From IMG/VR virus record IMGVR_UViG_3300032086_000691, positions 1 to 38,393 of that record: 38,393 bases of DNA, one strand, 5' to 3'. The translations under genes and the position numbers were made by a program. The notes below the pieces were generated by a model. It had not been told where the DNA came from and did not search any database. It was given only the letters and a program-made list of their open reading frames with translations. Source of the stretch: a virus. Positions 7,506 through 17,989 of this stretch are shown one piece after another; within the stretch, counting starts at the first letter, position 1; each line of letters begins with the position of its first letter.

Positions 7506-7859
7506 ATGAAAATAGAAATTAAATTAATACCAGACGGGCTTGACCTTGCAAAAGAAATACAGGACGGAACTCCTGTAGACCAAATGCAGGACGCATGTCC
7601 TATTGCTACACAAGACGTTGAGACAAATGAAGAGAACCAGCGTTTTGCAATCAAGGACCATCAATACGGTCCAGCGATTAACCCGGAGGAAAGCTGTGGT
7701 GTTTGCGCGGCTTTTAATATTAGTCCCGAAATGCAGCAGTGTATGAAGGACGAAACTGGCGAAGTGGGCTATTGCCAGTCATTGAAATTTATGTGTTCAG
7801 CGGCTAATTCATGCTCTATCTTTGCTCCCGGCGGACCAATGACAGGCATGGATGATTAA
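7506..7859 (+). CDS. Seven-cysteine small protein, possible metal or Fe-S binder
   Basis: The 117-residue protein has an acidic, ordinary N-terminal half and a C-terminal half carrying C64-x2-C67-x11-C79-x10-C90-x6-C97-x5-C103, plus C31. Spacing with CGVC first, then GYC, FMC and NSC resembles small metal or iron-sulfur proteins such as high-potential iron-sulfur proteins. That family normally has four cysteines with wider spacing, so identity is not established. A disulfide-rich fold is the alternative. No signal peptide is visible. It lies between structural-region genes and overlaps the next start (TAATG). A cytosolic redox or zinc role is inferred only from the cysteines. Confidence 0.72.
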   Translation: MKIEIKLIPDGLDLAKEIQDGTPVDQMQDACPIATQDVETNEENQRFAIKDHQYGPAINPEESCGVCAAFNISPEMQQCMKDETGEVGYCQSLKFMCSAANSCSIFAPGGPMTGMDD

Positions 7860-15431: not shown

Positions 15432-16100
15432 ATGGCAACTTCAGGCTCAACAGACTTCGACCTCGACGTAGCTGAGATAATCGAAGAAGCATATGAGCGG
15501 TGTGGACTTGAGGTTCGCACCGGGTATGATGCCAAAACAGCACGTCGTTCTATGAACCTGATGTTTGCTGACTGGGCTAATCGTGGTCTTAACTTGTGGA
15601 CAGTAAAGCAGGCGACGCAAGCTTTAACACAGGGCACTGCTACTTACACGCTTGATGCTAACCACACAGACCTTCTTGAGGTTTCACTTCGGCGCAGCGG
15701 TGTAGATCAGGAACTTACGCGCATGTCGCGTGGGCAGTATCTAGGCTTGCCAAACAAAACAACACAAGGAAAACCAAGTCAGTATTACTTCAACAGACAA
15801 AGTGCTCCGCAGATTACTTTGTGGGCTACTCCAGAAAACTCAACCGACACACTTGTGTATTACTATGTAAAGCGGATTGAAGACGTAGATACGTTAGCCA
15901 ACACGACTGACGCACCGTTCCGGTTCCTGCCTTGCATGGTTGCAGGCTTGGCGTATTACCTGTCAATTAAAAGAGCACCAGAGCGGGTGCAGCTTTTAAA
16001 GTCTGTGTATGAAGAAGAGTTCCAACGCGCAGCGGATGAGGACGAAGATAGAGTACCGTTGAAGTTACAGCCTAGTATTTCTTATCTTCGGGTAAACTAA
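15432..16100 (+). CDS. Head-tail adaptor (P22 gp4-like / connector)
   Basis: This would bind the portal after packaging and lengthen the channel toward the tail. The 222-residue product begins with a helical domain, LDVAEIIEEAYERCGLEVRTG, then RRSMNLMFADWANRGLNLWTV (about 40-60). Together these resemble the N-terminal fold of P22 gp4 and related podovirus adaptors. A beta segment and a C-terminal helix (KRAPERVQLLKSVYEEEFQRA) follow. The gene sits between the basic cluster and the tail genes and overlaps the next start (TAATG). Family placement is by resemblance only. Confidence 0.77.
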   Translation: MATSGSTDFDLDVAEIIEEAYERCGLEVRTGYDAKTARRSMNLMFADWANRGLNLWTVKQATQALTQGTATYTLDANHTDLLEVSLRRSGVDQELTRMSRGQYLGLPNKTTQGKPSQYYFNRQSAPQITLWATPENSTDTLVYYYVKRIEDVDTLANTTDAPFRFLPCMVAGLAYYLSIKRAPERVQLLKSVYEEEFQRAADEDEDRVPLKLQPSISYLRVN

Positions 16101-16678
16101 TGGCTAGATACGCATCTGGAAAATATGCTTACGGTATATCAGACCGTTCTGGTTTTCGTTATCGTCTTGCTGACATGATAACGGAATGGAACGGTCTTAA
16201 AGTAGGTCCAGATGAGTATGAGCCAAAGCACCCACAGTTAGAACCCATATCCCCTGGTTCAGACCCACAAGCACTTTTTGAACCCAGACCAGACACAAGC
16301 ACAGAGGTGGCTGTTCAAAGGCTTTTGATAAAAAACCCGTTCCAATCAGGTTCTCCGGGTTCTCCGATAATTACGGTGTTTGAACCTTCTCATGGTCGCA
16401 GCACATCAGATGCTGTTGCTTTTCGTAAAGTGGAGGCGTTTGATGGATTTTCAGAAGCTAGTCTTGAAAAAGCTACAGGATATACAATTACAGTTGTCGA
16501 TGCTGATTCGTACACAATCACCATCGTCGGAGGTGAAACAGCAACAATCGGTAACGCACGAGGCGGCGGTGACAATGCGACCTCTGGGCCGGGGACTGCT
16601 GCTGCAACAACAGCATCGACCTTTGATGCGACAAATGTTACACTCGATTCGGCAACTAAGACTTTTGACGAGGGCTAA
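16100..16678 (+). CDS. Virion structural protein
   Basis: The 192-residue protein opens MARYASGKYAYGISDRSGF, then RLADMITEWNGLKVGPDEYEPKHPQLEP (about 22-49). I associate this with a conserved family in marine phage neck or tail modules. The second half is Ser/Thr/Gly/Ala-rich and ends in a threonine-rich low-complexity tail. It lies between the adaptor and cupredoxin-like genes. It may be a minor neck protein or a plug; nothing decisive is visible. Confidence 0.72.
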   Translation: MARYASGKYAYGISDRSGFRYRLADMITEWNGLKVGPDEYEPKHPQLEPISPGSDPQALFEPRPDTSTEVAVQRLLIKNPFQSGSPGSPIITVFEPSHGRSTSDAVAFRKVEAFDGFSEASLEKATGYTITVVDADSYTITIVGGETATIGNARGGGDNATSGPGTAAATTASTFDATNVTLDSATKTFDEG

Positions 16679-17329
16679 ATGGCAAAACAAACAGTAGGAA
16701 TTGGCTCTGCCGCAAACGATGGCACTGGTGATACTCTGCGTGATGGCGCAGATAAGATTAATGATAACTTCACCGAAATTTACAATGCGTTGGGTGATGG
16801 CACCACATTAACGGATATTATTAACGCCTCTGGTTTACTTGATGTAAGTTCTGGTGCAAACAAAATTGTTTTTTATTACGCTGCTTTGACTGATTTACCA
16901 AGCGCATCAACCTATCATGGTGCAGTCGCCCATGTTCATGCAACTGGTGGTCTGTACTTTGCTCATGGTGGCAATTGGATACGTTTAAACGATGAGGTCA
17001 GTGGCCCGACAACCACATACACAACAACGGGGGCTACGGGTTCTGCCTACACTTTTTCTGGGCCAGGTGCTACTGCTGGCAACAACCCTAACTTTACCTT
17101 TTACAAAGGTCACACATATTTAATTGACAACTCTTCTTACGTCAGCAGCCACCCTTTGCAAATACGAACATCTTCTGGTGGCTCTGCTTTTACAACAGGA
17201 GTTACGGATAACTACAACAGCACCTCCGGGCTAACTCAGTTCATTGTGCCACACGAGCCTAGTGACACTTCGTTAGTTTATCAGTGTACTGTTCACAGCA
17301 GCATGGTTGGAAACATAACAATAGTATAG
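16679..17329 (+). CDS. Structural protein with cupredoxin-like C-terminal domain
   Basis: Of the 216 residues, the N-terminal part (about 6-38, VGIGSAANDGTGDTLRDGAD...NFTEIYN) is a recurring phage virion-anchor pattern. The middle (about 64-106) contains AHVHATGGLYFAHGGNW. The C-terminal domain (about 120-216) carries H158 in SSHPLQI and C203-x2-H206-x2-M209 in YQCTVHSSM, matching the His-Cys-His-Met order of type I copper sites (plastocyanin has C-x2-H-x4-M). So a cupredoxin fold and perhaps copper binding are likely. Copper binding is inferred, not shown. The site might also be used only structurally. Confidence 0.72.
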   Translation: MAKQTVGIGSAANDGTGDTLRDGADKINDNFTEIYNALGDGTTLTDIINASGLLDVSSGANKIVFYYAALTDLPSASTYHGAVAHVHATGGLYFAHGGNWIRLNDEVSGPTTTYTTTGATGSAYTFSGPGATAGNNPNFTFYKGHTYLIDNSSYVSSHPLQIRTSSGGSAFTTGVTDNYNSTSGLTQFIVPHEPSDTSLVYQCTVHSSMVGNITIV

Positions 17330-17341
17330 TGAGCAGGTAAC

Positions 17342-17989
17342 ATGTCTTTTACATACGCACAACTCAAACAAGCTATCCAAGATTTTGCAGAAAACACGGA
17401 AACATCTTTCGTCACCAACCTGCCCGTGTTTATTCGTGGTGCAGAAGATCGTATCTTCACACTTGTTGACCTTGAGTTGTTTCGTAAGAACGCCACGTCT
17501 GCGTTAACAAATGCTGACCCATACCTGTCTGTTCCTACAGACTACCTTGCGCCGTTTTCTTTTCAAATTACAACAGCGTCGAACAAAGTATTCTTAGACT
17601 TTAAGGATGTAAACTTTGTTCAGCAGTATTCCATAGACACAGGCGCAAACGCTAGACCAAAATACTACAGTATTTACGACGTGGATAATTTTATTGTTGG
17701 CCCTACTCCAGACAGCAATTACACAGTAGAGCTACATTATTACTATAGACCAGCTAGTATCACTGCTGGGCTTGATTCAGCAACATCGTGGTTGAGCGAA
17801 AACGCCCCTAACGCTCTTCTTTACGGCTCACTTGTGGAAGCGTATACTTACATGAAAGGTGAGCAGGATATGATGCAACTGTACGAACAAAGGTTCGCGC
17901 AGGAGATTCAGCGTTTGAAAGACTTGGCGGAAGCTAGAGAAAACTCAGACGCTAATCGTAGGGGCTTACCTGATAGGCCAAGGACTTAG
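17342..17989 (+). CDS. Phage adaptor protein (SU10-adaptor-like)
   Basis: The 215-residue protein starts MSFTYAQLKQAIQDFAENTE and contains FIRGAEDRIFTLVDLELFRKN (about 30-50), then a beta region (about 60-130) and a C-terminal helical part (SLVEAYTYMKGEQDMMQLYEQRFAQE). This resembles the adaptor family seen in Escherichia phage SU10 and many podoviruses, which binds portal or nozzle. Two adaptor-type genes (this one and 15432) fit a short tail built from stacked rings. A ribosome binding site, GAGCAGG, lies upstream. Confidence 0.8.
   Translation: MSFTYAQLKQAIQDFAENTETSFVTNLPVFIRGAEDRIFTLVDLELFRKNATSALTNADPYLSVPTDYLAPFSFQITTASNKVFLDFKDVNFVQQYSIDTGANARPKYYSIYDVDNFIVGPTPDSNYTVELHYYYRPASITAGLDSATSWLSENAPNALLYGSLVEAYTYMKGEQDMMQLYEQRFAQEIQRLKDLAEARENSDANRRGLPDRPRT

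Follow-up and report, generated by a model that had tools for sequence, protein, structure and literature searches.

A predicted amicyanin-type copper site in a cupredoxin-tipped virion protein of a pelagiphage-like podovirus

In amicyanin, copper is held by H53, C92, H95 and M98, i.e. with a C-x2-H-x2-M arrangement of the last three ligands (PMC12723479). In phage tails, HxH motifs have been tied to iron in T4 gp37 (PMC11705849). Mass spectrometry of virions of the cyanophage S-SCSM1 detected 45 phage proteins (PMC9602691). We found no description of a cupredoxin or a copper site in a phage virion or tail in the open-licence literature. Here we analysed a window of 38,393 nucleotides, positions 1 to 38,393 of the IMG/VR virus record IMGVR_UViG_3300032086_000691. 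Its capsid protein is 72.8% identical to that of HTVC023P and its terminase 59.5% identical to that of HTVC027P, and for both proteins these Pelagibacter phages are the closest. One of its genes encodes a protein of 216 amino acids for which a first-pass annotation had proposed a virion-anchor head and a copper-site pattern in a C-terminal beta domain. The ATG of this gene directly abuts the stop codon of the preceding gene. The features of the locus are as follows.

16100..16678, + strand: upstream neighbour (phrog_28581), a conserved flank of the insertion, directly upstream in relatives
16679..17329, + strand: cupredoxin-tipped virion protein, 216 aa, an open frame with a phrog_677 profile match
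16685..16858, + strand: N-terminal anchor domain of the T4 gp9/gp10 type, residues 3-60 (PF07880; T4 gp10, 2fl8_A)
16862..16990, + strand: middle beta module, residues 62-104, with the HxH motif H85-V-H87, from sequence and modelled with low confidence
17012..17326, + strand: C-terminal cupredoxin domain, residues 112-216 (AlphaFold, Foldseek, hhalign)
17108..17110, + strand: G144, the invariant glycine of the domain, invariant across phage copies and the masked-profile set
17150..17155, + strand: H158, the predicted first copper ligand, and P159, invariant in 41 diverse domains
17279..17281, + strand: Y201, second-shell Tyr of the Y-x-C motif, invariant
17285..17287, + strand: C203, predicted copper ligand, 205/205, TGC and TGT both used
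17294..17296, + strand: H206, predicted copper ligand, 205/205, CAT and CAC both used
17303..17305, + strand: M209, predicted axial copper ligand, 205/205
17342..17989, + strand: downstream neighbour, an SU10-type adaptor (PF24175, E 4.3e-28)

The proposed virion-anchor head is borne out by profile matches. Residues 3-60 match PF07880 (T4_gp9_10_N) with an E-value of 2.5e-9 and 37.9 bits, above the curated cut-off of 25 bits, and the PDB matches of the head are T4 gp10 and gp9, with chain 2fl8_A at E 4.6e-7 over residues 3-43. The whole protein matches phrog_677 (baseplate wedge tail fiber connector) with 161 bits in two stretches, the best of which covers residues 100-216. In the middle module, an HVH motif of the HxH type at 16931-16939 is found as YHGxxAHVHA in 57 of 57 distinct close relatives.

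In HTVC023P and HTVC027P the two neighbour genes adjoin, with no cupredoxin gene between them. Both neighbours directly flank the cupredoxin gene in 64 of 80 close relatives, and a contig end cuts 12 of the other 16. The gene is therefore an accessory insertion among tail genes and, since it is absent between the same neighbours in the two Pelagibacter phages, dispensable for this virion type. Elsewhere in the window, the tail genes include two C1q-domain proteins (PF00386; 21876-22382 and 22931-23464), a Cpn10-like gene (PF00166; 8049-8474) lies between the portal and capsid genes, and 7506-7859 encodes a 117-residue protein that has seven Cys and matches no Pfam family.

H158 and C203-x2-H206-x2-M209 follow the ligand order of a type 1 copper site, and all four positions were verified in the translated open reading frame. 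C203 is the sole Cys of the protein and M209 its sole internal Met. In shuffles of the protein's own residues, the pattern H-x(30-75)-C-x2-H-x2-M arose 27 times in 200,000. The first-pass annotation had noted that the Cys-His-Met spacing is shorter than in plastocyanin, which is correct, and had taken this as a hint of a purely structural site; that second point falls, because amicyanin, itself a genuine type 1 copper protein, has the identical C-x2-H-x2-M spacing, which rules out short spacing as a sign of a structural-only site.

Conservation of the four predicted ligands was assessed in several sets of relatives. One of our search patterns included Cys, His and Met, and the resulting ascertainment bias was countered by ligand-free queries and by a ligand-masked profile. 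Eighty close relatives fetched with patterns free of all four ligand residues keep C-x2-H-x2-M without exception (80/80). A ligand-free query, consisting of the part of the domain that ends before the first ligand, retrieved 80 loci containing 112 domains; the motif is present in 110 of these, and the other two are gp10 copies lacking the whole site. With the four ligand columns masked, the profile found 205 distinct homologous domains, 204 of which have all of H-C-H-M, the conservation that the first-pass annotation had asked to be checked. In the one remaining domain, which belongs to a cellular protein, the alignment has a gap at the first His, so that the H158 column is His in 204/205 and the C203, H206 and M209 columns are each complete at 205/205. 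Among 41 diverse phage domains, which span 33-90% identity to the window domain, the invariant columns are G144, H158, P159, Y201, C203, H206 and M209. Third codon positions at the ligand His and Cys vary freely between CAC and CAT and between TGC and TGT; this synonymous turnover indicates that selection maintains the ligand residues.

A paralogous domain in cyanophage gp10 occurs in two states. All four ligands are present in 9 distinct sequences and none in 46 distinct sequences, and no partial site was seen among the copies aligned at all four columns. A His that sits in the Met column of some gp10 copies was not scored as a ligand. This all-or-none pattern suggests that the four residues form a single unit, as those of a metal site would, although it may stem from few evolutionary events. 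The gp10 copies also show that the fold persists in the absence of the metal site. The proximal tail fibre of S-CAM1 (L372:766-3021) has Y-x-C-x2-H-x2-M at residue 199 and the remaining domain at 233-303, like a permuted cupredoxin. S-CAM1 was rejected as a case of Cys-His-Met loss, as the Y-x-C-x2-H-x2-M segment precedes the remaining domain.

The AlphaFold2 model of the C-terminal domain is a confident beta-sandwich (pLDDT 87.5, pTM 0.81), with strands that include E61-64, E99-104 and E111-116 in the numbering of the domain model, to which 99 is added for protein numbering. H158 is placed immediately ahead of a strand, C203 where a strand ends, and H206 and M209 in the following loop. Outside the domain, before residue 108, the model of the full-length protein gives no useful information. 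In a Foldseek search of the PDB, all 50 of the 50 matches listed were cupredoxins or multicopper proteins, with modest TM-scores of 0.37-0.49. The modelled domain is in line with the cupredoxin-like fold proposed at first pass, with the ligands predicted at canonical cupredoxin positions. Cyanophage gp9 and the proximal subunits of long tail fibres are among the viral matches, with TM-scores of about 0.8.

Profile comparisons point the same way. Against solved structures, the phage domain profile matches wild-type amicyanin with an E-value of 1.5e-3 and amicyanin variants with 5e-4, and amicyanin is among its best single-domain matches. PF00127 (plastocyanin/azurin) is matched by 18 of 41 phage relatives and TIGR02657 (amicyanin) by 15 of 41. 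The window's own sequence reaches no Pfam or NCBIfam cupredoxin model; only its relatives and the profile do. In hhalign, the phage domain aligned to PF00127-positive cellular proteins with 97.6% probability, and still with 92.9% when the ligand columns were masked on the phage side. The homology to cellular blue-copper proteins seen in these alignments holds whether or not the ligands are masked. Two narrower assignments were rejected. TIGR02657, for amicyanin proper, does not match the window member (best relative, E 8.3e-5), nor does TIGR02656, for plastocyanin PetE proper (best relative, E 1.5e-3).

The cupredoxin domain is widespread in marine phages, in gp9 connectors and long tail fibres. 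It is modular in many fibre and connector proteins, and one protein can have as many as four copies. Among cultured cyanophages, the domain occurs in syn9, S-SSM5, S-SCSM1, P-HM2 and P-SCSP2. In S-SCSM1 it is carried by the long tail fibre proximal subunit, annotated ‘(virion protein)’; the membership of this subunit among the 45 proteins of the virion is taken from the record annotation. P-HM2 encodes a large protein in which two cupredoxin-like domains are combined with a subtilisin-like stretch (L083:937-6252). In Synechococcus phage S-SCSM2R, a gene named ‘PetE’ (L368:4800-5306) encodes a fibre-type protein of 168 residues that carries this cupredoxin domain; the gene is adjacent to one for a peptidase S8 and another annotated FhaB. 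This ‘PetE’ is likely to be a virion protein under a wrong name and not a plastocyanin of photosynthesis. A narrower pattern scan of genome contigs returned the usual cupredoxins of cells and a single contig (L263:1893-5306) of a Gammaproteobacteria MAG in which the cupredoxin domain occurs twice in its phage-type form; this is probably phage sequence within the MAG.

In our best explanation, which we hold to be probable, the window encodes a small virion protein that is fixed to the tail by its gp9/gp10-type head and displays a cupredoxin domain with an intact, copper-binding type 1 site of the amicyanin type. As a prediction, a copper-binding virion domain is well supported. The T4 gp9/gp10-type head would fix the protein to the tail of a HTVC023P-type (pelagiphage-like) podovirus, and the C-terminal domain would be displayed with a predicted type 1 site formed by H158, C203, H206 and the axial M209. 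The site likely binds copper. Phages assemble in the cytoplasm, which contains little free copper, and the metal would for that reason probably be taken up outside the cell, after lysis. With less certainty, the metal may lock the exposed binding module and so keep its shape at the host surface; alternatively, and again less certainly, it may be directly part of the host contact. Electron transfer by the site is possible. The strict retention of the axial Met and the metal-free fold in gp10 together argue mildly for a role beyond folding.

A more restricted version of this explanation is that the metal, either copper or else zinc or Cu(I) taken up inside the cell, is a structural lock only, in a rigid spacer or a glycan- or protein-binding module with no redox function. 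We give it somewhat less than an even chance. Like structural modules, the domain is found again and again in fibres and connectors, in up to four copies per protein, phage assembly takes place where free copper is scarce, and type 1 sites are able to bind other metals. However, the gp10 fold persists without the site, so the metal is unneeded for folding there, and the axial Met, the weakest ligand, is kept as strictly as the others while not being obviously required structurally. A redox-active copper that exchanges electrons with host-surface or released components, by which the virion would sense or use redox conditions, would fit the complete H-C-H-M set, the amicyanin loop length and the Y-x-C motif, and the relatives of the site are electron carriers. 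Yet no partner or acceptor was seen, and we regard this role as unlikely.

By analogy with iron, virion copper could also act as a Trojan horse, that is, as a lure for host copper uptake or as a copper carrier. The precedent of iron in tail fibres and the HxH hypothesis (PMC11705849) speak for such a role, as does the accessory insertion of the gene between conserved tail genes, where host-interaction genes often lie. The predicted site, however, would lie inside the beta sandwich and not in a surface HxH cluster, and we rate this role as slightly less probable still than the redox one. That the residues are a chance pattern or a relic and form no metal site deserves hardly any weight. It draws on the window sequence alone falling below database thresholds, against which stand the masked-profile conservation, the synonymous codon turnover, the all-or-none loss and the fold match; a chance pattern as such is ruled out by the shuffles and the masked-profile conservation. 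The reading we prefer remains that of a tail-fixed virion protein with a copper-binding cupredoxin domain.

The fold at this locus is a known one in a new setting, and the site is conserved through marine phage tail proteins. A far-reaching extension, which we consider doubtful, is that marine phage virions carry blue-copper centres in tail and baseplate proteins and that the copper helps to recognise or act on the host surface in a redox- or copper-dependent infection step. We found no precedent for such a step in the literature. If the prediction is true, the tails of marine phages are metalloproteins, with consequences for infection, for virus particles as ligands of copper in seawater and for the debate about the iron Trojan horse. 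There is a practical consequence for annotation, as a fibre-type cupredoxin labelled PetE, as in S-SCSM2R, could be miscounted as a photosynthesis gene. The cultured cyanophages with the domain make the copper prediction testable now.

Among known systems, amicyanin (TIGR02657; PDB 1aac) has the same ligand order and the same C-x2-H-x2-M loop as the window domain. Amicyanin is a free electron carrier, whereas the window domain is joined to a gp9/gp10 head in a phage virion protein. The first His is followed by Asn in amicyanin but by Pro (P159) here, and by Pro in nearly all relatives. Plastocyanin PetE (PF00127) has the superfamily, the fold and the ligand types in common with the window domain, but its loop is longer than C-x2-H-x2-M and the window domain is located in a virion protein. 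The closest annotated relatives of the window protein are the cyanomyovirus gp9 proteins (phrog_677), which share both the head and the C-terminal domain. These proteins are about 410 residues long with a longer middle, and belong to T4-like myoviruses rather than to a HTVC023P-type podovirus; we found no description of their C-terminal domain as a cupredoxin in the literature. T4 gp9 and gp10 (PF07880) have the N-terminal anchor in common with the window protein, and the solved T4 proteins match only its N-terminal 40-50 residues. The HxH iron-binding tail fibres (T4 gp37) of the Ferrojan or Trojan horse hypothesis likewise place metal in a tail protein of marine phages, as is predicted here, while the window domain differs from them in its metal site, its fold and its predicted metal.
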